IMG/VR virus record: IMGVR_UViG_3300043411_002742
Location: 1-44,918 of that record
Strand: one strand, 5' to 3'
DNA from: a virus
DNA length: 44,918 bases
Part shown: one piece after another, positions 874 through 24,710 of the stretch
Numbering within the stretch: position 1 is the stretch's first letter
Layout: every line of letters starts with the position of its first letter
Position numbers and translations under genes: made by a program
Notes under the pieces: generated by a model
Told to the model about the DNA's origin: nothing
Seen by the model: the letters and a program-made list of their open reading frames with translations, nothing else
The model's database searches: none

Positions 874-1163
874 TGGCTAAAAATCGATACTCAGATACAC
901 AGCTTGTCTCAAACCCAACAAGGCTTGGAACGAGCCGTATTCACCTTGCTGTCAAAGATGCTGTAACAAACAACCTTGTCTCTACAGAAACATACATTCT
1001 TAAAGGTTTTGAACGACTTGACACAATCGCAGGAAGAGTTTACGGTGACTCTGGATATTGGTGGATCATCGCAGCTGCAAGTGATATTGGATGGGGACTG
1101 CAGGTGCCTCCAGGAACAGTTCTTACAATTCCAAATTTTGAAGAAATTAAACAATTAATATGA
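873..1163 (+). CDS. LysM-domain baseplate wedge protein (gp53-like)
   Basis: This small 96-residue protein resembles T4 gp53 and P2 gpX-type tail proteins. Residues about 45-90 form a LysM-like module: the ERLDTIAGRVYGDSGYWW segment matches the 'D-x-I-A-x-x-x-Y-G-x-x-x-x-W-W' signature, followed by PPGTVLTIPN, the usual LysM end strand. In contractile tails such proteins bridge wedge or tube initiator and hub in the baseplate. The gene overlaps its upstream neighbour by one base and the next gene by four (ATGA), so translational coupling is likely. The LysM fold is confident; the gp53 equivalence is inferred from size and position. Confidence 0.7.
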   Translation: MAKNRYSDTQLVSNPTRLGTSRIHLAVKDAVTNNLVSTETYILKGFERLDTIAGRVYGDSGYWWIIAAASDIGWGLQVPPGTVLTIPNFEEIKQLI

Positions 1164-4042
1164 AAGATATTTTTACTCCAAGATCTTTAGAGGAAATTTA
1201 TAAAGTCGTCAGAGCAAAAGATTTTGAATCTGGACTTAAGTTTGTGACGCGTCCAGAAAAAGATATTTCAATTTACACAAAAGCACTAGAAGCAATTATT
1301 AATGATACGAATAATGGAACAAGATCAGCAGCACAAATCATAAGTCTTCTTTCAAATTTTCCTGAAGTTGCTAAAGTTCTAAGAGTATTTCCTTATATCG
1401 GCTCTGGAATTGCAAATGGAAATGTGTCTGTTAAAGAAGTATTGTGTCTTGATGATAATGATCCCGAAGGTACAAAGCTTGCAGTAATACAGAGTAATAC
1501 AGTTAAGCTTCATACAAATGTTCGTAATGCCAATGACGTTGCTTTGTTTTTAAGTGTAATTCCTACACTTGAACTGTCAAGAGCCGTTCCTTATCTTGAT
1601 GTTCAATTTCAAATAAAACGAAATTTCGGAAATGAAGCTGACAGACATTTTGCAACTGCACCATCGACATTGCGTTTTCTTGAAGGCGCAATTAGCTTAG
1701 GAAAAGACACAAAAAATCCTGATTATATAATGGGTAATGCATTGCAACAACGAAAAGGCGAAATAGGCGGAAAGTACGAAAAAAAAATAGATGATGTTGA
1801 TTTTACTGATATGAGTATTTTCACATCACCGCAAACGCTAGTTCCTTCGAATACAGCAAAAGGTGAAGGTAGAGCAGCTGAAGTAATAGACAGATTTAGA
1901 CCATTTATGTCACTTGAAGGTGTAGATATCACAGTCGTTCCAACGCCAGTTTATTCTACTGCTTATAAGACGATGAAGATGAGTTTGATTCTTCATGATC
2001 GTTCACGCTTGTCTGAAATATCAGACTTCATTCGTCCTGCCGTATATTCAGGTACATCAATTGAGATTGAGTATGGATGGAGTCATCCGGATGAAAATAA
2101 CGAAAATAATGTTTATGGACAGCTAATAAAGAAAATGAGGCTAACTGAGATTTATGGAATCACCAATTCATCATTTCAGTTTGATGCTTCAGGGCAAGTA
2201 AAGATTACGCTTGATCTTCATATGAAAGGTCACAATGAACTGATCACAAGTAAAATATCTGAGAGTGATAAATTTACATCACCTCAAAAAGCAATTGATG
2301 AAATTTCAGAAAAGATTTCGACACTTGTTTCTGCGATGCCTGCGAATGAAAAAGATCCTCGTGCATTTCAGGTTCTTAGTTCATTTGAAAGCGGTGAATT
2401 TCCTGATACAGAAAAATTCAAAAAAGATCTTAAAGGTTTTATTAAAGATCTTTCAGCAAGAACGCTAGATGAGTCATCACAAAAATTAAGCAAATTATTA
2501 AAAGATCAAAGTGAGAAAAATGGAATTAAAGGATTTTTAGAACAGCAGAATAAATCAAAGCAAGCTCATATAGATGACAAATTTTTGAAGATCAATTTTA
2601 TAAAAGGTGCAACAGGAAAAAGTGAAACTGATTTAGCAAAGAAAGATCCATTTTTACCAAGTGCATCAGAGCTCATAAATGAAGAATCACTAAGAGATGA
2701 TCTAGGTCTTGAAAAACAATTAGGGCAATTGAAACGCATGCACAGTGAGATTGCTAATACAATTTCAGAGGCAAAAGGAAATAAGAAAAACAGTGTTGTT
2801 TCACTTGCAAAAACAATGTTGATCTTTGTTGGCGAATCTCTTAAAGCAACAGGTAAATGGAGTGAAATTCAGTTTATCTATTATCCAATGAATGATTATG
2901 CAGGACTCTTTGGTGGCGTGAATATTGGGTCTTTTATGCTAGAGACTGCACATCTGCGGACAAAGATTTCTGAAGAGATGAAGTCCAAGAAATCAATCGA
3001 TATGTCACTTGGTGAATTTGTTACAACTGTTTTAAACGCATTTGTAGCAAATCCTAGATCAATCAACTATGGTCTAAGAGACATATACAAATCACCTGAT
3101 GGTGATTTTTTTAAAGAACCCAGGCTTCCTGAAAAAGTAGGTGAAGGAACTATTGCAAATCGTATGGATGCAATCCTCAAAGTTCGAGGTAAAGGTGCTG
3201 GTGTTTGGAAACAACCAACACTTTCAACATTCATTGAAACGCTTCCTCAAATGTCAGATGTAAATCCTTCAACTACAGGTGATGCGAATCGTGATGGAAA
3301 ATTGAAAAAAGGATCTGACATATTGCGAATTCATGTCTATGATCAGCAGTCATCATCATATGATGCGTTTGCAATTCTTAAAAATGCGCAAACACTTCTT
3401 CAAAATGCTTATGATTCAAAAGATAAAACATCAACACTTAAAGAAATAGAGAATCTAAAACAGCTTTTAAAAGCATCAGGAACAGGAATCATTATTGATG
3501 ATAAAGACGGAATTTTAAAAATCAGTGCAACACCTGAAGATATAAAGAAATTTGTAACGCAAACTGTTCCAACACTAACATATGGTTCAAACAACACAGG
3601 GATTATTAATGCGACACTTCAGTCGATTCAAGACCCTAGTCTCAATTCAATAAACATCATCCGAAATAACGATTTGAAAACCACGCAGCCTAACGGGTCA
3701 GGAATTGGTAATTTGCCATTGCGACTCATTCCTTCTAAAGTTGATGTCAACTTATTTGGCTGTCCGCTAATTCATATGCATCAGCAATTCTTTATCGATT
3801 TTGGAACAAACACATCAGTTGACAATTTTTACAACGTGAACCAAGTTACACATAAATTAGCTCCTGGAAAATTTGAAACCCACGCGCAATTGATTCCAAC
3901 AGATGCTTATGGTGTATATGAAAATCTTACACAGCGTCTCAAAATGCTTAATAAACGCATTGGTGTGCTAGGTGACACTCCTCCTTCATCTAATACACCA
4001 ATTAAATCAAGTAAAAAATCTAAAACGATTAAAAGAAAATAA
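1160..4042 (+). CDS. Large baseplate hub-like structural protein
   Basis: This 960-residue protein has no enzymatic motif that I recognise. A central segment (about residues 250-360) contains SLILHDRSRLSEISDFIRP and IEIEYGWSHPDEN, a pattern seen in hub proteins of large phages. The C-terminal part (about 850-930) reads PLIHMHQQFFIDFGTNTS, then a 'VNQVTHKLAPGKFET' strand, resembling the last domain of gp27-type hubs, where a tube-like beta barrel ends the protein. The middle (about 420-560) is lysine-rich and probably helical. It is coupled to the LysM gene by a 4-base overlap and closes the structural module before replication genes begin. The hub assignment is an inference from motif style, size and order. 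Confidence 0.5.
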   Translation: MKDIFTPRSLEEIYKVVRAKDFESGLKFVTRPEKDISIYTKALEAIINDTNNGTRSAAQIISLLSNFPEVAKVLRVFPYIGSGIANGNVSVKEVLCLDDNDPEGTKLAVIQSNTVKLHTNVRNANDVALFLSVIPTLELSRAVPYLDVQFQIKRNFGNEADRHFATAPSTLRFLEGAISLGKDTKNPDYIMGNALQQRKGEIGGKYEKKIDDVDFTDMSIFTSPQTLVPSNTAKGEGRAAEVIDRFRPFMSLEGVDITVVPTPVYSTAYKTMKMSLILHDRSRLSEISDFIRPAVYSGTSIEIEYGWSHPDENNENNVYGQLIKKMRLTEIYGITNSSFQFDASGQVKITLDLHMKGHNELITSKISESDKFTSPQKAIDEISEKISTLVSAMPANEKDPRAFQVLSSFESGEFPDTEKFKKDLKGFIKDLSARTLDESSQKLSKLLKDQSEKNGIKGFLEQQNKSKQAHIDDKFLKINFIKGATGKSETDLAKKDPFLPSASELINEESLRDDLGLEKQLGQLKRMHSEIANTISEAKGNKKNSVVSLAKTMLIFVGESLKATGKWSEIQFIYYPMNDYAGLFGGVNIGSFMLETAHLRTKISEEMKSKKSIDMSLGEFVTTVLNAFVANPRSINYGLRDIYKSPDGDFFKEPRLPEKVGEGTIANRMDAILKVRGKGAGVWKQPTLSTFIETLPQMSDVNPSTTGDANRDGKLKKGSDILRIHVYDQQSSSYDAFAILKNAQTLLQNAYDSKDKTSTLKEIENLKQLLKASGTGIIIDDKDGILKISATPEDIKKFVTQTVPTLTYGSNNTGIINATLQSIQDPSLNSINIIRNNDLKTTQPNGSGIGNLPLRLIPSKVDVNLFGCPLIHMHQQFFIDFGTNTSVDNFYNVNQVTHKLAPGKFETHAQLIPTDAYGVYENLTQRLKMLNKRIGVLGDTPPSSNTPIKSSKKSKTIKRK

Positions 4043-4083: not shown

Positions 4084-5298
4084 ATGTTATGTGTGTCCAA
4101 AAATATTGTTGGAGCTACAAAACATTTGTTAATTAATGACAATAACGATCTAAGTTTTGTCAACGAACCTCCGCAAGATGTGTATTTTTATGATGAAAAT
4201 TTTGCAAAAACGAAATGTTTAAGAACATTGTTTTCATTAGAAAAAAAACAGTTTACAGCCCAAATTCCTGAACAATATAAAAAAGCATATAGTCAGCTTA
4301 CAAAAAATTCAGATAACAAAATACCTCCTTGGTTTCGATGTATTCCACAATCACAATATAAAGCTTTCCTAGATAATGCAAAAAACGAAATAACAAATCA
4401 GTTTCAAAAATGTAATGTTCAATATTACGAAAACACATTTTCTAAGCATACAATCGTATTTGATTCGCTGCAGCCATCAAAGATATCATTTGATGCAATA
4501 AAATCACATTCAAAATCCGAACAGTCATCTCCTGAAGCTGTGCTGAATACATTCATGCCATCAAGAGATGGTGTCACATCACCAATCGTTTATGATCGCC
4601 TTGGTTCGCGAACAGGACGGCTTAAGATCGCTTCAGGTCCGAATATTATGACTCTGAAAAAAGAATTTCGTAATGTTCTATGCTCAAGGTTTATAGGTGG
4701 AAAAATATTGTCAATCGACTATTCAGCTCTTGAAGCAAGAATAATGCTCTATTCAGTTGGTCGTGCAACATCGAATGGCGACCTATATGAGCTTATTGTA
4801 AATGAAGTTTTCGATGGTAAGTTAACACGTAACCAAGTTAAGGTTGCAGTTCTGTCACTTATTTTTGGTAGTGGAGAAGCTTACATAGCACATTCACTTG
4901 GAATTGAGAGAGTAGAAGCTAGAAGAATTTCAAAAGAAATAAGGAAATATTTTTGTGTGTCTATTCTTGAAAAGAAACTTATAGAGTCTATGGTTGATGG
5001 TCACATTCGAAATCATTATGGAAGACTTGTTGAAGTACCAGAAAATAACTTAATTGTAAATTCTTTTATACAATCAACAGGCGTTGATGTTGCACTTCAC
5101 GGGTTTACAAAGATTGTTGAATTTATTTCATCTATAAAATCAAAAATAAAACCTGTGCCTTTGTTTATTCAAACAGACGCAATAATTTTAGACATCCCTC
5201 CAGAGTTCACAGATTTGCCGATCTTGCTCAAAGCTGCTGAGTCAATTCCTGGATTTGTTCAAAGATTTCCTGTACATGTTGATCTGTTTGCGAAATAA
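4084..5298 (+). CDS. Family-A DNA polymerase-like protein, polymerase domain only
   Basis: The C-terminal 240 residues carry the family-A (Pol I) palm/fingers motifs. A TGRL segment (about residue 178) precedes motif A DYSALEARI (D212, E216). Motif B is R249-x3-K253-x7-F261-G, with Leu and Phe where Pol I has Phe762 and Tyr766. Motif C is QTDAIIL, so the usual H-D-E is T-D365-A. Both metal-binding aspartates remain, but the third acidic residue is lost. At 404 residues there is no 3'-5' exonuclease domain; the N-terminal 150 residues are unrecognised. A full polymerase III alpha subunit is encoded at 18334-23082, so this is probably an accessory or repair polymerase. No clear Shine-Dalgarno precedes the ATG. 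Confidence 0.75.
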   Translation: MLCVSKNIVGATKHLLINDNNDLSFVNEPPQDVYFYDENFAKTKCLRTLFSLEKKQFTAQIPEQYKKAYSQLTKNSDNKIPPWFRCIPQSQYKAFLDNAKNEITNQFQKCNVQYYENTFSKHTIVFDSLQPSKISFDAIKSHSKSEQSSPEAVLNTFMPSRDGVTSPIVYDRLGSRTGRLKIASGPNIMTLKKEFRNVLCSRFIGGKILSIDYSALEARIMLYSVGRATSNGDLYELIVNEVFDGKLTRNQVKVAVLSLIFGSGEAYIAHSLGIERVEARRISKEIRKYFCVSILEKKLIESMVDGHIRNHYGRLVEVPENNLIVNSFIQSTGVDVALHGFTKIVEFISSIKSKIKPVPLFIQTDAIILDIPPEFTDLPILLKAAESIPGFVQRFPVHVDLFAK

Positions 5299-7144: not shown

Positions 7145-8818
7145 ATGAATAAGCCTTCGAAAAAGGATAAAGCTGAGTTGTCTTCACAGCAAAATGCAGA
7201 TGTCGATAATTTTACAAGTGATCTTATCAAAGATCTCAATAGAGAGCACGGACAAAAAATTGCTTTTAATTTGAGTACAGATGATGCACCAACTGTAATA
7301 AAGCGTTGGATATCTACTGGTTCAAGGCTCCTAGATTATATGATTGCAAATAGGCGCAATGGAGGTTTACCGGAAGGACGAATTATTGAAATTTATGGTT
7401 CACCCTCAACCGGTAAATCTCACATTGCTTTACAAATATGTAAATCAACACAAAAGCTTGGAGGGATTGTTGTTTATATCGATACCGAAAATGCAACATC
7501 ACTCGAAAAGCTTCATCAAATGGGAATTGATGTCTCAAAGAGATTCGTGTTTATTGAAACTTCATGTACAGAAGAAGTCTTTTCCGTCATTGAAAATACA
7601 ATTCTTAAAGCAAAAGTAATTAATAAAGATTTGCCAATTACGATTGTTTGGGATTCTGTTGCTGCAACATCTCCAAAGCAAGAATTGTTGAACGGTTATG
7701 ACAAGGATACAATTGGTCTTCAAGCTCGTGTAATTTCAAAAGCTATGCGAAAGATTACAGGACTAATTGGAAGCACAAACACAACGTTGATATGTCTAAA
7801 TCAGACAAGAACAAAGGTTGGTGTAATGTTTGGAGATCCTACATGTGTAGATCCTGAAACTACTAAAGTGACGATAAAACAACCGATTCAAAAAATGGAT
7901 TTTAAAACAGCGGTATCAAAATATGATTTGACACCAAGACCAGAACTTGACAAATATAAAGTTGATGTTACTGTTGACATAACACCATACAAAATAACAT
8001 TAGCTGAATTATCTAAAAGATTTCTAAAAAATTCTGACCTATCAACTCCAAAAGTTTATGATATGTCAGAGCACGAATTAGAAATTTTGAGTGCAGATGA
8101 AAATGGTGATGAGGTGTTCAAGCCACTTACGCACTTTGTTGTAAAAGATGAAGTTGTTGAACACTATCAATTAGGCGAGCTTAAAGGAACAGCAGATCAT
8201 CGAGTCCTTGTAGGAAAAGAATACATTACTCTCAAAGATCATCCAGAAGCGAAATTAGTTCAAAGCCCTATAAATGTTGTTGATGTTTCTGTTGACGAAA
8301 CACAATGTTATGTTGCTAATGGACACATCAATCATAATACAACACCCGGTGGAATGGCAATTCCTTTTCATGCAAGTGTTCGATTAGCTCTCACAGGTGG
8401 GTCGAAAATTATGTCCAAGGATGGTGAAACTGCTCTTGGTATTAATGTGATTGCTCGTACAGCAAAAAACAAGGTGGCAATGCCATTTCGAAAATCTGAA
8501 TTTGAGATTCATTTTGGCAAAGGCATTGTTGAGCATGAACAAATCTTTGATATTATGCGAGACAAAGGAGCGCAAATCGTTGATGGGAAAAAAATTCTTA
8601 TTGATGGTAAAGGTGCTTGGAAGCAAATGAAAGTTAATGACGAAAAGACAGGTGAAGTTCTTTATGAAAAGAGTTTTTACAAGAATGAATTTGATAAACT
8701 CTTTATAGATCCTGAAGCAGGTCCATATCTTGAAGCCGCATTTGAAAAAATTATGGTAAAAGACGCGTCAAATATGTTATCAGATCTTGATGAATCGAAA
8801 GATGAAGAAGAAAAATGA
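7145..8818 (+). CDS. RecA/UvsX-family recombinase interrupted by an intein
   Basis: This is a strand-exchange recombinase for replication restart and repair. Walker A is GSPSTGKS (residues 85-92). The IVWDSVAATSPKQE segment provides Walker B and L1, and NQTRTKVGVMFGDPT leads into the L2 loop. The 557-residue product contains a 165-residue intein (residues 234-398). Removing it joins FGDPT to TTPGGMAI, rebuilding the RecA L2 signature (compare FGNPETTTGG of bacterial RecA) and leaving a 392-residue protein. The C-terminus is acidic. An AAGGA ribosome-binding site lies 10 bases upstream. It follows the ssDNA-binding protein, as expected for partners, and overlaps dUTPase by 4 bases. It is closer to RecA than T4 UvsX at L2. 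Confidence 0.88.
   Translation: MNKPSKKDKAELSSQQNADVDNFTSDLIKDLNREHGQKIAFNLSTDDAPTVIKRWISTGSRLLDYMIANRRNGGLPEGRIIEIYGSPSTGKSHIALQICKSTQKLGGIVVYIDTENATSLEKLHQMGIDVSKRFVFIETSCTEEVFSVIENTILKAKVINKDLPITIVWDSVAATSPKQELLNGYDKDTIGLQARVISKAMRKITGLIGSTNTTLICLNQTRTKVGVMFGDPTCVDPETTKVTIKQPIQKMDFKTAVSKYDLTPRPELDKYKVDVTVDITPYKITLAELSKRFLKNSDLSTPKVYDMSEHELEILSADENGDEVFKPLTHFVVKDEVVEHYQLGELKGTADHRVLVGKEYITLKDHPEAKLVQSPINVVDVSVDETQCYVANGHINHNTTPGGMAIPFHASVRLALTGGSKIMSKDGETALGINVIARTAKNKVAMPFRKSEFEIHFGKGIVEHEQIFDIMRDKGAQIVDGKKILIDGKGAWKQMKVNDEKTGEVLYEKSFYKNEFDKLFIDPEAGPYLEAAFEKIMVKDASNMLSDLDESKDEEEK
7844..8338 (+). mobile_element. Mini-intein in the RecA-like recombinase
   Basis: The protein element runs from Cys234 to Asn398 of the host protein (165 residues). 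It starts CVDPETTKVTI (block A), contains block B as KGTADHRVLV with the T-x-D-H signature, and ends VANGHINHN, followed by Thr as the +1 nucleophile. These are all residues needed for standard class 1 splicing: Cys1, block B Thr/His, penultimate His, terminal Asn and +1 Thr. No LAGLIDADG, HNH or other endonuclease motif is present, so it is a mini-intein that cannot home by itself. The roughly 100 residues between blocks A and B are charged and probably a residual insertion. Insertion in the DNA-binding L2 loop makes recombinase activity depend on splicing. Confidence 0.9.
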
Positions 8819-17494: not shown

Positions 17495-18337
17495 GTGAAA
17501 TTAGCAATCGCAACAGATATTCATTTAAATTTTGTATATGAAGCTGGAACATCTGAGTTTATTAGAAGAGTAAACTTGTCTGGATGTGATGCCATTCTTT
17601 TGACAGGTGATATTGCAGAGGGAAATAATCTGGAAAAATATTTCCAAATATTTGTTAGAGAATGTAATCTGCCTGTTTATTTTGTTCTTGGAAACCACGA
17701 TTACTGGGGTACGTCAGTTAGCGGAATTCGAGATGATATGAATAAGTTCTGTGCAGAAAATAAAGGGTTTACATATCTGAGAAGTTCAGATCCTGTTATT
17801 TTGACACCTGGCACTTCGCTTATTGGAATTGATGGTTGGTATGATGCAGGCTATGGAGATGCTAAAAAATCAACGCTGATTATGAACGATTGGTTCAAGA
17901 TTTCAGACTTTTCTGATTATGTTGTGCCAAATTTTGCAAATTCGTATTATGGATATGAAAATACGATCAACAAAGCTGGTATAGTGTCATATTGCAAAAA
18001 ACTTGCAATTCTTGATGCTGAGTTGTTGTCTAGAAAAATTGACGAGGCTGCGAAGGTAAGCAACACAATTTTAATTGCAAGTCATTTTCCGGGATGGCTG
18101 GATGTCTCTAAATACAGAGGAAAACCAACAGACAAGAATTCACAGCCGTATTACATTTCAAAAATTCTTGGTGATACAATCAATGAAGCAGCAGGAAAAC
18201 ATCCGGATAAAGAATTCAAAGTATTTTCAGGACATACACATGCTGCAGCAACAACAAGGCTTGCACCAAATTTAGAAGCAACAGTTGGACATTCAGATTA
18301 CGGAAACCCTCAGATTTATAAGATAATTGAACTATGA
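17495..18337 (+). CDS. Calcineurin-like metallophosphoesterase
   Basis: This is a dinuclear-metal phosphoesterase of 280 residues. The full motif set is present: D8-x-H10 in IATDIHLN, GD39 in LLTGDIAEGN, GNHD (about 68-71), the histidine of IASHFPGW (about 195) and GHTH (about 248). The substrate may be a nucleotide, nucleic acid or phosphoprotein; it lacks extra domains typical of SbcD/Mre11. The start is GTG, with only a poor ribosome-binding site. It is the first gene after the terminator and overlaps dnaE-N by 4 bases (ATGA), so it is probably co-transcribed with the polymerase. Confidence 0.85.
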   Translation: MKLAIATDIHLNFVYEAGTSEFIRRVNLSGCDAILLTGDIAEGNNLEKYFQIFVRECNLPVYFVLGNHDYWGTSVSGIRDDMNKFCAENKGFTYLRSSDPVILTPGTSLIGIDGWYDAGYGDAKKSTLIMNDWFKISDFSDYVVPNFANSYYGYENTINKAGIVSYCKKLAILDAELLSRKIDEAAKVSNTILIASHFPGWLDVSKYRGKPTDKNSQPYYISKILGDTINEAAGKHPDKEFKVFSGHTHAAATTRLAPNLEATVGHSDYGNPQIYKIIEL

Positions 18338-21213
18338 CTAAACCAAAACAATTCGTCGGTCTTCACGCTCATACAGGATTTAGTACATTCGATGGTCTTG
18401 GTTCTCCAGAAGAACATATCGATTATGCTGTAGAAAATGGTATGGATGCTATGGCGTTTACTGAACATGGGAACATGGCTTCGTTTCCTCAAGCAACTCT
18501 TCATGCAAAAGAACTTCGCAAAAAAGGAATTAACTTTAAGCATATCGCCGGTGTTGAAGCATATTACCATCCTGATCTTGCTCAATGGGAACGAGAAAAG
18601 TTTGAATATGAAGAATCTAAAAAAGAATCAAAAAAACATATTGCAGCAGACGTAGAAGAATCGGGGGCAGAAAATGAAGATGAGACCAAGAATGTTTCTA
18701 AGTGGTTTAATCCAATTAATAGACGTCATCACTTGGTGCTTCTTGCAAAGTCGAACAAAGGATTAGAAAATTTATTCCAGCTTGTTTCAAAATCTTTTAA
18801 AGATGGGTTCTATAAGTTTCCTCGCATTGATAGAAAAATGTTGAAGGAATTCGGTGAAGATATTGTCATTACGACAAGTTGTGTTGGTGGGCCCTTGGCA
18901 TATTCGGCATTAACCCATTTTCCTGGAGTGCCGTTTGACGATCTGAAACCTGAACTGATGAATGATAAATCAGTATTTGATTCGATTATGTCAAAAGCAG
19001 AAAATGTCTGTGATGAGCTAATTGATGCAGTTGGAAGAGACAATTTTTTTGCTGAGCTGCAGTTCAACAAACTTGCTCCACAACACCTTGTTAATCGATC
19101 TATTCTTGAACTAGGAAAACGAGGAATCAACCTAATAGCAGCTGCCGATTCACATTATTGCCGTCCTGAACTTTGGGCAGAGAGAGAAATTTATAAGAAG
19201 CTTGGAAGACTAAATTACGATCAAATTAATGCTGATTTGCTTCCAAAAGACAAGTCTGCATTGAAGTGTGAATTGTATCCGAAAAATGCAACTCAAATGT
19301 GGGATGCATACAAAGAATATTGCGGTGATTATTCATTCTATGATGATGCTGTTGTGTCAAAAGCAATTGAGAGCACATGGCATATTGCACATGACGTAAT
19401 TGGAAATTTTGAACTTGATTCTAAAATGAAACTTCCGTCATTTGTTGTTCCAAAAGGAATGACTGCATTTCACGCACTTGTTGAAGCGTGTAAAGACGGT
19501 ATGCGAATCCGCGGCTTAATGGGAAAGCCTGAATATGTTCAGAGACTAAAGCATGAACTAAAGATTATTAAGGATAAAGAATTCGCTCAGTATTTTCTTA
19601 CAATGAAAGCAATCATTGATATTGCACATTCATCCATGTTAGTAGGTGCCGGGAGAGGATCGGGGGTTGGAAGTTTAGTTAATTATGTTCTTGGAATTAC
19701 ACAACTTGATCCAATCAAGTATGGATTGATTTTTGAAAGATTCATTTCACCTTCACGCGTCGATGAACCCGACGTTGATTCTGACGTCGCCGACCGCGAT
19801 TCATTAGTGAATCAGATGAAAACAAGTTTTGGAGAAGAGAACGTAATTCCAATTACAAATTTCAACACATTTCAGCTCAAGTCTCTTGTGAAAGATATTT
19901 CAAGACTTCACGGAATTCCATTTGAAGAATCAAATGAAGTTACAAAAAATCTTGATGACGATGTTAAGCATAAAGCTAATGCTGCAGGTGAAAATAAGTC
20001 ATTATTTCAATTAAAATATGACGACTGCATGAAACACTCAGAGAGATTTAGAAATTTTATTGAAAAATATCCTCATGTTGGTCAACATATTAAAGTTTTG
20101 TATAAACAGCAAAAAACGCTTGGTAGACATGCCGGCGGCGTTGTTGTAATTGAAGATGCTTCGAAGCATATGCCGCTTATTGCTGTGCGAAAAGAAATTC
20201 AGACACCTTGGCCTGAAGGGATGCATATTAAGTCTCTTTCACCATTTGGAATTATCAAGTTTGACATTCTTGGACTTGAAACTTTGCGAATGATTCAACG
20301 TGCTATTGAATTGATTTTACAGCGCCATGAAGGAATTTCAAACCCTACTTGGAATGATGTGAATGACTGGTATCAGAAACATTTGTCACCAGATGTAATT
20401 GACGAAGCTGACCCAAAAGTTTTTAATCGTGTTTTTAAAGAAAAGCGCTTCGCAGGAATATTTCAATTCACAGCAAAGCATACACAAAAGTTTATTCATG
20501 AATTTGATCCTGAAAATGTGAATGATCTTGCAGCAGCTACAGCGATATATCGTCCTGGTCCTTTAGCAGCAAAAGTTGATAAACTGTATATTGAAGCAAA
20601 ACGTGATAGAAGCAAAATTCATTATGATCATCCTGCAAAGAAAAAAGTGTTTGAACCAACTTTGGGATTTTGTCTGTTTCAGGAACAGCTAATGCAGATC
20701 GCACATGAATTGGGTGGGCTTTCACTTGATGAGTGTGATAAACTCCGCAAATCGATTCTTAAAAGATCAGTTTCGGGATTGAGTAAAAACAAATCTGAAT
20801 CAGAAATACTAGAAGAGAAATTTATTGATGGTGCGGAGAAAAATGGATATCCTCGAGATAAAGCAAAATCTTTCTTTGACGAACTGGCCAAATGGAGTTC
20901 ATATGGGTTTAATAAAACTTTGTATCATTATGAAATGATTGATGTTTTTGATGAAAGTGGGAAATTCATTGTCCCGAAAAAAATATGTGATATTTTGCCT
21001 GGTGAATATGTCAAGTCAAGAGATGAAAACACAAAGGAAGATATTTTTATTAAAGTTCTTGATATACATGATCATGGTGAACTTGAACTAGTTGAAATAG
21101 AATTAGACGATGGAAGAAAAGTAAGATGCACATTAGACCACAAATTCAGAACGAAATGCAATCAGATGTTACCACTTCATCAAATACTATCGGAAAACCT
21201 GGAATTGGTTTAG
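18334..21213 (+). CDS. dnaE: DNA polymerase III alpha subunit, N-terminal part fused to split-intein N half
   Basis: This is the N-terminal 861 residues of a bacterial-type replicative polymerase, then a 98-residue intein N half. The PHP domain opens with GLHAHTGFSTFDG (H-x-H) and AFTEHGN. The palm has GAGRGSGVGSLVNY (about 436) and the metal aspartates D480 and D482 in PDVDSDV, with the third, D644, in IKFDILGL. The fingers segment includes AATAIYRPGP. The extein stops at YGFNK861; the next residue, Thr862, begins intein block A. The missing C-terminus is encoded at 22063-23082. Joined exteins give about 1163 residues, equal to E. coli DnaE. An ATGA overlap links it to the phosphoesterase gene. 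Confidence 0.92.
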   Translation: MTKPKQFVGLHAHTGFSTFDGLGSPEEHIDYAVENGMDAMAFTEHGNMASFPQATLHAKELRKKGINFKHIAGVEAYYHPDLAQWEREKFEYEESKKESKKHIAADVEESGAENEDETKNVSKWFNPINRRHHLVLLAKSNKGLENLFQLVSKSFKDGFYKFPRIDRKMLKEFGEDIVITTSCVGGPLAYSALTHFPGVPFDDLKPELMNDKSVFDSIMSKAENVCDELIDAVGRDNFFAELQFNKLAPQHLVNRSILELGKRGINLIAAADSHYCRPELWAEREIYKKLGRLNYDQINADLLPKDKSALKCELYPKNATQMWDAYKEYCGDYSFYDDAVVSKAIESTWHIAHDVIGNFELDSKMKLPSFVVPKGMTAFHALVEACKDGMRIRGLMGKPEYVQRLKHELKIIKDKEFAQYFLTMKAIIDIAHSSMLVGAGRGSGVGSLVNYVLGITQLDPIKYGLIFERFISPSRVDEPDVDSDVADRDSLVNQMKTSFGEENVIPITNFNTFQLKSLVKDISRLHGIPFEESNEVTKNLDDDVKHKANAAGENKSLFQLKYDDCMKHSERFRNFIEKYPHVGQHIKVLYKQQKTLGRHAGGVVVIEDASKHMPLIAVRKEIQTPWPEGMHIKSLSPFGIIKFDILGLETLRMIQRAIELILQRHEGISNPTWNDVNDWYQKHLSPDVIDEADPKVFNRVFKEKRFAGIFQFTAKHTQKFIHEFDPENVNDLAAATAIYRPGPLAAKVDKLYIEAKRDRSKIHYDHPAKKKVFEPTLGFCLFQEQLMQIAHELGGLSLDECDKLRKSILKRSVSGLSKNKSESEILEEKFIDGAEKNGYPRDKAKSFFDELAKWSSYGFNKTLYHYEMIDVFDESGKFIVPKKICDILPGEYVKSRDENTKEDIFIKVLDIHDHGELELVEIELDDGRKVRCTLDHKFRTKCNQMLPLHQILSENLELV
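20917..21210 (+). other. Split intein N half (IntN)
   Basis: IntN is the last 98 residues of the dnaE-N product. Block A reads TLYHYEMIDVF, aligning with the usual C-L-x-x-D-T-x-V/I pattern but with Thr at position 1. Block B is RCTLDHKFRT, with the required T-x-x-H. DILPGEYVKSRDE and VEIELDDGRKV are typical of the horseshoe fold. A stop TAG follows directly after SENLELV. Thr at position 1 is unusual for inteins, where Cys or Ser is the norm. Confidence 0.88.
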
Positions 21214-22085
21214 AGTGTCGTCTTTGTGGAATTTTTTTGAAAAGACTTCATATGCATATTCGAAACGTGCATGATCTAGAAAAAGATGAATATCTTAAAC
21301 AGTTTCCAAATGAAGATCCAACTTTGACATGTCCAACATTAAGAAAGTCATATTCAAAAGCTGGAATTGTAGGTGGTAATAACTGTAAGCCAAAAATGGT
21401 CGCAGAAGGTAGATGGGATGCAATACAAGTATCACGTAGTATTGCTATGAAAAAGTGTATTGCTGAAGACCCACGCCAGCAAGAGCTTCGCAGACAAAAT
21501 ATGATTCGTCTTAATAAAACTGACGAACAACGAAAGCGTTCAAGTGAAACAGCAATAAAAACTTCTGCAAGACCTGAAATCTTAGAAAAAAGAACCAAGA
21601 ATTTAAAAAATTGGAGAGACAATAATTACGACGATTTTTATAATAACTGTTGCCACAAAATGCTTAGTTCATGGCATTCAAAACCTGAACTTGCTTTATT
21701 CAAAGCAATTAGTGAAAAATACATAGACTTTCAACACAACAAGATTATTACATCACATTTGTTTAAAAGCAAATCAGGCCGTCGTCAAATTGATATTTTG
21801 TGTGAAAATAAAAAAATAGCTGTTCTGTACGATGGACCAGCACATTTCATATCGATTCATGGTAGTAAAACATTACAAAATGTAAAAATTTCTGATGAAG
21901 ATGTTAACACAGCACTTCCAATTCTCGGTTATACACTGATTAGAATATCAGACAGCGAATACACAAATAGAAAATTTGAAATATTCACGCAAAAATGTTT
22001 AGACAAACTATTTTTGCTTATTGATGAAAATAAACCTGGACTTTATAGATTAGGAGATGAATATGGCGAAAATAATATCCTGTAA
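21126..22085 (+). CDS. Vsr-like (EDxHD-type) homing endonuclease inside the split intein
   Basis: The 319-residue product starts inside the intein N coding sequence (88-base overlap, different frame) and ends inside the C half. Residues about 31-63 form a MucR/C2H2-like zinc finger (ECRLCG, then H-x3-H in HMHIRNVHD, then YLKQFP). The middle is basic and helical, probably DNA-contacting. The C-terminal domain (about 185-300) has SKPELALFKAI, RRQIDILCENKKIAVLYDG and PAHF, consistent with the E...D...x-H...D nuclease core related to very-short-patch-repair endonucleases. It would cut intein-less dnaE alleles to spread the element. The ATG at 21126 has GGAAG 9 bases upstream. Confidence 0.82.
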   Translation: MHIRPQIQNEMQSDVTTSSNTIGKPGIGLECRLCGIFLKRLHMHIRNVHDLEKDEYLKQFPNEDPTLTCPTLRKSYSKAGIVGGNNCKPKMVAEGRWDAIQVSRSIAMKKCIAEDPRQQELRRQNMIRLNKTDEQRKRSSETAIKTSARPEILEKRTKNLKNWRDNNYDDFYNNCCHKMLSSWHSKPELALFKAISEKYIDFQHNKIITSHLFKSKSGRRQIDILCENKKIAVLYDGPAHFISIHGSKTLQNVKISDEDVNTALPILGYTLIRISDSEYTNRKFEIFTQKCLDKLFLLIDENKPGLYRLGDEYGENNIL

Positions 22086-22173
22086 ACCAATTGGGAAGCA
22101 TCCCACACGTGATCTTGAAGTTGATCATGCTGATCATCAGTTTTATCTTTCAAACGGTGTGTTGACATCTAAT
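22063..22173 (+). other. Split intein C half (IntC)
   Basis: IntC is 37 residues, MAKIISCKPIGK... then block F/G as DLEVDHADHQFYL and NGVLTSN. The terminal Asn is followed by Ser (+1) of the extein. The penultimate residue is Ser rather than His, as also seen in cyanobacterial DnaE inteins. There is no Cys at block F position 4, so it does not look like a class 3 intein. Confidence 0.9.
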
Positions 22174-23082
22174 TCACATTCTGTCGCTTATGCATTCTGC
22201 TCTTATCAAACAGCGTGGCTTATGACATATTTTGAACCTGAATGGCTCTGCGCGTATATTGAATCAATGATTGACGATCCGGATTCACGTTCTCAAGCAA
22301 TATCTGAACTTAAGTCATTTGGATATAAAATTGGAAAAGTTGATATTAATAAATCAAGCTTCAAGTGGATTATCGGCGATGACAACAAAACTTTTGTTCC
22401 TTCATTTAAAACCGTAAAAGGTGTTGGTGATGTTGCAATTGAAGAAATCGTTAGACTGAGACCTTATAATGACATAAATGATTTGCTTTGGAATGATGAC
22501 GGAAGTTGGAAACATTCTAAATTTAATAAACGTGTTTTTGATAATTTGACAAAAGTTGAAGCATTTGACTCGATGAACATTGCTGGGCAAGGATGTAAAT
22601 TTGAAAATTATAGGCAGATGAATAAATGCATAATAGAAAATGTTCCTCTGCTGAAAAAGAAAAATGGAAAGGAGACACTTGAAAAGTTAATTAGTGATTC
22701 AAATCTTGAAGCGGATTGGTCAACATTTGAAAAGATTGCAATGTATAAAGAGCTTATGGGAGAAATTAACGTTGACTTGATTATCTCTCCAGAAATTCAG
22801 CGTAATCTTGCAAAGAAAGATGTAAAGTGTATTGATCAGCATGATGAAGGAAAAGATGTTGTATGGTTCATTCCTGTAAGAGCCATCAAGAAGACATCCA
22901 AGAATGGCAAAGAATATTTGTTGCTTACTGTAATAGATCAATCAGCAAAAGAACACAGAATTTTTATATGGGGAGCAGATGACGATTCATCGATTATGAT
23001 GAACACACCTTATGTAGCCGAAGTAGAGAAGACAGGTTTTGGTTTTTCTTCTCGATTAACAAAAATGAAGCAACTTACATGA
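22063..23082 (+). CDS. dnaE: Split-intein C half fused to the C-terminal part of DNA polymerase III alpha
   Basis: The product is 37 residues of intein C half followed by about 302 residues of polymerase. The extein starts SHSVAYAFCSYQTAWLMTYF, the conserved segment after YGFNK in DnaE. A helix-hairpin-helix region (VKGVGDVAIEEIVRLRP) and a C-terminal OB fold (VWFIPVRAIKKTSKNGKEY) follow. I chose ATG 22063 because TAGGAG lies 6 bases before it; the ATG at 22057 abuts the Shine-Dalgarno. With its own ribosome-binding site it is translated separately and joined post-translationally to the N part. It overlaps the endonuclease gene by 23 bases and the next gene by 4. Confidence 0.9.
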   Translation: MAKIISCKPIGKHPTRDLEVDHADHQFYLSNGVLTSNSHSVAYAFCSYQTAWLMTYFEPEWLCAYIESMIDDPDSRSQAISELKSFGYKIGKVDINKSSFKWIIGDDNKTFVPSFKTVKGVGDVAIEEIVRLRPYNDINDLLWNDDGSWKHSKFNKRVFDNLTKVEAFDSMNIAGQGCKFENYRQMNKCIIENVPLLKKKNGKETLEKLISDSNLEADWSTFEKIAMYKELMGEINVDLIISPEIQRNLAKKDVKCIDQHDEGKDVVWFIPVRAIKKTSKNGKEYLLLTVIDQSAKEHRIFIWGADDDSSIMMNTPYVAEVEKTGFGFSSRLTKMKQLT

Positions 23083-24179: not shown

Positions 24180-24710
24180 TTGAGTCAAACGTTTTTAAAG
24201 CGAACATTACTTGTTAATTCATCGTGGGAACCACTGAATTTTCTTGATGATCGAAGAGCAATTTCGCTTCTTATAAATGAAAAAGTTGAAGTAATTTCAA
24301 TTTGGGATGGTGAAATGCTTATTCCTTCTCTTGGACAAGAATTGCCAGCCGTTCTTCGTCTTAGAAAACAAATAAAGAAACCATTTAAAATGCCAAAATT
24401 CCGTCGTAAAGTTGTCTTTACACGTGATAGTTGGTCTTGTCAATATTGTGGAATTCAACTTTCTACAAAAGAAGCAACAATTGACCATGTTATTCCAAAA
24501 TTTAATGGTGGCAAAACTGATTGGAAAAATTGTGTAACTGCATGTGTTATTTGCAATCGTCGTAAAGGATGTAAGCGATTAGAGTTTGCAAGAATGTCAC
24601 TTATTAAACAACCCGAAATTCCTAACGTGATTCACTTTTGGGATCTTCGAAAAGGAAATATTGAATGGCACCCTATGTGGGACAGTCTTATAATTCATCG
24701 TATGAAATGA
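24180..24710 (+). CDS. HNH endonuclease
   Basis: This 176-residue protein has an HNH nuclease core: SCQYCGIQLSTKEATIDHVI (zinc C-x2-C, catalytic D-H), then GGKTDWKNCVTACVICNRRKG (Asn and second C-x2-C). The N-terminal domain (LLVNSSWEPLNFLDDRRAI) is the usual partner in bacterial and phage HNH proteins of this type. It could be a free-standing homing endonuclease or a host-DNA nuclease. It does not interrupt a recognisable gene. I take TTG as start, with AGAAAGG 9 bases upstream. Confidence 0.82.
   Translation: MSQTFLKRTLLVNSSWEPLNFLDDRRAISLLINEKVEVISIWDGEMLIPSLGQELPAVLRLRKQIKKPFKMPKFRRKVVFTRDSWSCQYCGIQLSTKEATIDHVIPKFNGGKTDWKNCVTACVICNRRKGCKRLEFARMSLIKQPEIPNVIHFWDLRKGNIEWHPMWDSLIIHRMK

Follow-up and report, generated by a model that had tools for sequence, protein, structure and literature searches.

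Split inteins are known from the DnaE of cyanobacteria (Npu, Ssp), where the two polymerase halves are encoded far apart in the genome with no nuclease gene between them and the intein insertion precedes CFNKSHS, which places it three residues ahead of the YGFNK/SHS site considered here. A more compact arrangement was reportedly described by Dassa et al. in NAR in 2009 as fractured genes with split inteins, comprising eight enzyme types. In these, the enzyme gene is interrupted by an intein split at its usual point, a free-standing nuclease gene of EDxHD/Vsr type lies between the halves and the context is that of phages. The AceL NrdHF split intein (PMC7891396) likewise belongs to a fractured phage-like gene, with an IntN of 98 aa and an intervening homing nuclease gene.

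The window, which is the whole stretch of 44,918 nucleotides analysed and a linear virus record, possibly a fragment, shows the arrangement ascribed to Dassa et al.: an enzyme gene in two ORFs, split-intein halves of 98 and 37 aa, and a free-standing nuclease gene. It appears to differ from those fractured genes in its host gene, dnaE, and in having Thr as residue 1. The AceL intein, in contrast to that of the window, has a GIY-YIG nuclease, a class 3 mechanism with Ala1 and NrdHF as host gene (PMC7891396). The Npu/Ssp inteins share the host enzyme and recognisable sequence homology with the window but carry Cys1, and the DnaE mini-inteins of NiceHouse and Grayson have the identical insertion site but are unsplit, carry Cys1, lack a nuclease and fall on a distant branch of the intein tree. 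Fractured genes as such are already known; the DnaE/Thr1 form, and an overprinted sister state of the same lineage, look new. With high confidence we read the locus as a mobile element made up of a split intein with trans-splicing halves and a homing nuclease, its insertion point being exactly between the Lys and Ser of the conserved YGFNK/SHS motif in a phage DnaE. Its features, all on the plus strand, are as follows.

18334..20916, plus strand: DnaE (Pol III alpha) N-extein, 861 aa, with PHP, NTPase/palm and finger domains and the motifs PDVDSD and KFDILGL
20917..21213, plus strand: intein-N, 98 aa and stop; Thr1 is ACT at 20917-20919
21073..21075, plus strand: codon of His53 (HDHG stretch)
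21130-21141, plus strand: block B TxxH of intein-N, Thr72/His75
21126..22085, plus strand: putative homing endonuclease with zinc finger and EDxHD (Vsr-fold) core, 319 aa
21216..21272, plus strand: Ros/MucR-like zinc finger, C31-C34-H44-H49
21678..21950, plus strand: Vsr-like core with E188, D223, D236, H240 and D257
22051..22056, plus strand: TAGGAG Shine-Dalgarno of the intein-C gene, 6 nt before ATG 22063
22063..22173, plus strand: intein-C, 37 aa (MAKII...GVLTSN), ending in Ser-Asn
22174..23082, plus strand: DnaE C-extein, 302 aa, beginning with Ser+1 (SHSVAY), with stop

An initial annotation made from the DNA letters had broken dnaE at YGFNK/SHSVAY into exteins of 861 and 302 residues, and both the break and the lengths hold. 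The ORF 18334-21213 is DnaE (NCBIfam TIGR00594, E=1e-149) and reads ...KWSSYGFNK before the 98-residue intein-N and its stop, and the ORF 22057/22063-23082 reads intein-C ...GVLTSN/SHSVAY and then DnaE-C. Within 18334-23082 the three genes overlap, the nuclease ORF sharing 88 nt with IntN (21126-21213) and 23 nt with IntC (22063-22085), so the annotated gene between the halves does overlap both. The TAGGAG assigned to intein-C was recovered where listed; ATG 22063 is the likely start of this gene, ATG 22057 being without usable spacing to TAGGAG. The block A, block B and stop described for intein-N are present, with the correction that block A begins with Thr rather than the usual Cys. Thr1, the His that accompanies it, the signs of movement of the whole unit and the overprinted sister form were not part of that annotation. 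When IntN and IntC were joined as one query they matched the Npu DnaE split intein with E=5e-14, a value that rules out chance as the source of the sequence resemblance. Across the window nuclease the intein frame has 17 stops against 15.7 expected from permuting synonymous codons; on this count, read-through and overprinting were both rejected for the window, which with no stop depletion is genuinely split. An Rfam search of the window gave no match to a group I/II intron and no known RNA intron, and a promoter scan gave scores no better than those of shuffles.

Uninterrupted dnaE relatives with the junction YGFNKSHAVAY, 44% identical to that of the window, were found in L002-L005. In the L002 alignment the N-extein of the window ends at base 8658 and the C-extein starts at 8659, with nothing gained or lost. 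The initial annotation had staked its reading on homologous phages carrying this junction in an unbroken dnaE, and the L002 gene is unbroken at YGFNK/SHAVAY. The search it had proposed, for dnaE homologues with and without the element, turned up both, as fractured phage contigs and as the uninterrupted L002-L005. The exact empty site in L002, together with the same fracture and nuclease family in other phage contigs, supports its assignment to the fractured genes. Contiguous Cys1 mini-inteins occupy the same site in the Rhodococcus phages NiceHouse and Grayson (SFNK/SHAVAY and SFNK/SHSVAY), as do Cys1 inteins in the dnaE of many bacteria (Thermus, Omnitrophota, Gemmatimonas), and YGFNK/SHS is thus a recurrent insertion site.

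In the proposed working of the element, the three overlapping genes would be translated as DnaE-N::IntN, the nuclease and IntC::DnaE-C, and IntN and IntC would associate and splice in trans. Thr1 would attack the upstream bond (N-O shift), aided by Thr72/His75 of block B and probably by His53, the ester would pass to Ser+1, the terminal Asn would cyclise, and ligation of the exteins would give a single polymerase of 1163 aa. The separately made zinc-finger/Vsr-fold nuclease would cut an uninterrupted dnaE at the empty site or close to it, and during repair the whole IntN-nuclease-IntC unit would be copied into the cut allele. The sequence itself shows the anatomy, the exact empty site and the retention of catalytic residues; it also shows that other phages have this unit, that dS is lower within it and that the nuclease evolves under purifying selection in its relatives. 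Splicing, cleavage and homing we infer.

The sister state was found in contiguous, open dnaE inteins of 371-413 codons in Venteria (L048), Beggiatoa (L075), Thiomargarita (L079), a Thiotrichaceae MAG (L090) and a viral contig (L015, 5112-6350 as oriented, stored on the minus strand), and in L075 and L015 the frame is that of a full DnaE (NCBIfam). All five hold a complete zinc-finger nuclease of the window's family, 299-357 codons long, in the +1 frame, and the linker of the intein and a whole nuclease would thus be encoded by one stretch of DNA. Each of the five has 0 stops in the intein frame against 14-21 expected when the synonymous codons of the nuclease are permuted (P <= ~3e-4 each, a bound set by the permutation count), whereas in the fractured nucleases, that of the window included, intein-frame stops are not depleted. 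In the four bacterial members omega is 0.13-0.21 in the nuclease frame and 1.1-1.7 in the intein-frame linker, and GGAG stands directly upstream of the nuclease ATG; the overprinted linker is read as free to vary provided that its frame stays open. Eroded forms (L056, L058, L093, L011) keep the intein frame open with the nuclease in fragments. It is probable, and we hold it with good confidence, that in this DnaE intein lineage the nuclease is a separate gene in another frame and that the lineage has two stable states, one fractured in phages and one overprinted and contiguous in giant sulfur bacteria as well as some viral contigs. If true, a selfish nuclease could ride an intein without domain fusion, and the overprinted form would be a second route for the association of nuclease and intein.

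We know of no earlier description of an overprinted nuclease inside an intein. The nearest precedent found for the overprinted form is the out-of-frame HNH gene of ShiLan-type insertions (PMC11855218), where an open insertion, itself in frame, likewise holds a nuclease gene in a different frame, but with no intein or self-splicing domain, an HNH nuclease and a methylase host gene. Of four inteins reported in Thiomargarita nelsonii, the dnaE intein alone was described as having no nuclease domain (PMC4853749), and overprinting may explain that report.

On the intein tree the overprinted clade has support 100/99 and the fractured group 90/92, the latter also containing the contiguous Ser1 intein L016; the two join in one branch (98/95) with Npu just outside. 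That these are neighbouring clades with homologous nucleases would suit an origin of the window state from an overprinted contiguous intein, of the sulfur-bacterial or L015 type, after stops had accumulated in the intein frame. The nuclease frame relative to the intein is, however, +1 in the overprinted and +2 in the fractured state, so that neither state is the other plus stops and at least one indel or separate nuclease insertions would be needed, and we consider this origin rather unlikely.

The zinc finger and EDxHD/Vsr-like core of the initial annotation were both recognised in the window nuclease, the core with the backing of a structure search and the finger as a weak Ros/MucR-like match. 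The AlphaFold model has a mean pLDDT of 76, above 90 in the core, and its only PDB matches below E=0.001 are to Vsr, 1cw0 (E=3e-4) and 1vsr (E=4e-4). E188, D223, D236, H240 and D257 are invariant in an alignment of 15 sequences, the window nuclease and 14 relatives. Pfam matches across the family are to DUF559, MTES_1575, Vsr and Ros/MucR or C2H2 fingers, and are mostly weak. The window nuclease gave zero tblastn matches in 50,697 annotated phage records, and a scan of viral contigs with this single protein gave no match. A broader alignment including L015 was too diverse to serve as a query. With a profile of the family, 11 loci were found in viral contigs, 11/11 in a dnaE fractured at this exact site. 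With the window counted and apparent duplicates removed, these amount to about ten distinct fractured loci.

Mobility of the unit is inferred from these other members, as the searches yielded no near relative of the window. For L014-L042, dS is 0.09/0.21/0.11 in IntN/nuclease/IntC against 0.78/0.91 in the N-/C-extein; for L040-L041 it is 0.48/0.42/0.31 against 2.2 and saturation in the exteins; and for L027-L033 it is 0.39/0.56 in IntN/nuclease against 1.6/1.9 in the exteins, the short IntC being an exception at 1.28. DNA identity along the genes agrees with the dS pattern in close pairs. Because dS inside the unit is mostly far below that of the flanking dnaE in the three close pairs, these values support a transfer of IntN, nuclease and IntC together. 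For the window itself, the intein is 57% and the exteins 30% identical to L036, compared with 50% and 46% for L014, and from these diverging ratios the histories of intein and exteins differ. The locus would thereby belong to a set of several members in which the joint movement of a split intein and its nuclease into a replicative polymerase can be tested directly.

The nuclease could nevertheless have ceased to act in homing in this phage while splicing is real, the element being fixed or degenerate, or the nuclease domesticated. In the VEFDG stretch the window has Leu at the E234 column, which is Glu in relatives and more than 90% conserved, so that lowered activity of the window nuclease is possible, and the nuclease is about 35% identical to its fractured relatives compared with 47-58% for the intein. 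Yet the window ORF is intact and retains all five core residues, and in relatives the unit has been transferred and the nuclease is under purifying selection (omega 0.12-0.34 in the compared pairs). A loss of homing in this phage is on balance unlikely, and a homing role for the nuclease is retained in the preferred reading.

At the same dnaE fracture, other proteins were also encountered between the halves: a LAGLIDADG protein in L009, a distinct Vsr/MTES_1575-like protein in L022, and in L010 (2699-3853, minus strand) and equivalently in L026 a reverse-strand ORF of 384 aa in place of the nuclease. The L010 ORF (GDLYGPGLYTW...EAAEYYGD) had no Pfam match. A second intein lies upstream in the same dnaE in L027 (...DFVLTHN/TSWPDIDTD), similarly in L042, and in L041 (...GLAVHN/SSAGSLVA). 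In L011 a RecA-like ORF (3-683) seems to run into an intein start (NPET/CVSPSTKITWRKMHK).

Thr1, though rare, is permitted in class 1 inteins, whose definition requires Cys1, Ser1 or Thr1 (PMC5222942). The window intein has the class 1 set of Thr1, block B TxxH (T72/H75), terminal Asn and Ser+1. A class 3 mechanism was considered and rejected: the WCT signature is absent, block F is RDLEVDHADHQFYL without Cys, and B:12 is Phe. At the YGFNK/SHS site Thr1 is found also in L017 (split), L011, L015 and the Thiotrichaceae contig L090, with Ser1 and Cys1 in other members. The intein tree has at least 7 changes of residue 1, none of them outside Cys, Ser and Thr; the split inteins compared at this site always have one of these three and keep the block B His and terminal Asn.

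Residue 1 was found to vary together with the position of His53. Among 36 inteins, 35 of them at this site and comprising 20 Ser1/Thr1 and 16 Cys1 inteins including the reference Npu, His occupies this position in 20/20 with Ser1/Thr1 and 0/16 with Cys1 (Fisher P=1e-10, ignoring relatedness). Since all Ser1/Thr1 and no Cys1 inteins compared have this His, the window Thr1 probably acts by oxyester chemistry. L036/L037, within the fractured Ser/Thr clade, have Cys1; their N-junction reads FNH and the His is replaced by Asn, nucleophile and His position thus differing together, and the Cys1 L036 without His is a natural experiment on nucleophile choice. Split DnaE inteins that naturally use Thr1 or Ser1 are rare, and such inteins are sought for protein ligation without thiols.

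A His restricted to one group of inteins has a possible parallel in the motif NX His of Pasch et al. (PMC10189870), which is confined to cysteine-less inteins, adjoins residue 1 and is essential for splicing. Hydroxyl nucleophiles at 1 and +1 are common to those inteins and the window, although they use Ser1 and the window Thr1. The motif NX His is preceded by Lys/Arg, whereas the His at the His53 position is preceded by Asp (in the window), Tyr or Asn, and the two may not be equivalent positions.

The unusual Thr1 could alternatively mark an inactive intein with decaying halves, and the polymerase halves, being translated separately, would then function as two subunits associated non-covalently. 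The recurrence of Thr1 in four other inteins and the restriction of residue 1 to Cys, Ser and Thr speak against this, as do the perfect association with His and the low omega that IntN and IntC have in relatives (mostly 0.01-0.39), which argue against decay, and we regard such a polymerase as very unlikely compared with one joined by trans-splicing. An assembly or sequencing artefact, suggested by a single metagenomic record without a close relative, can be dismissed: about ten distinct contigs share the architecture, their frames are open, the overlaps are conserved and the sequences evolve under constraint.

The genes neighbouring the fractured dnaE in the window include those for a DnaB-like helicase, SSB, a UvsX-like recombinase, dUTPase, ribonucleotide reductase and thymidylate synthases. 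An ORF of 960 aa at 1160-4042 had no family match and precedes one of 404 aa at 4084-5298 with a partial match to family A polymerase (PF00476, E=7e-8, below cut-off). A free-standing HNH endonuclease gene lies at 24180-24710, about 1 kb downstream of dnaE.
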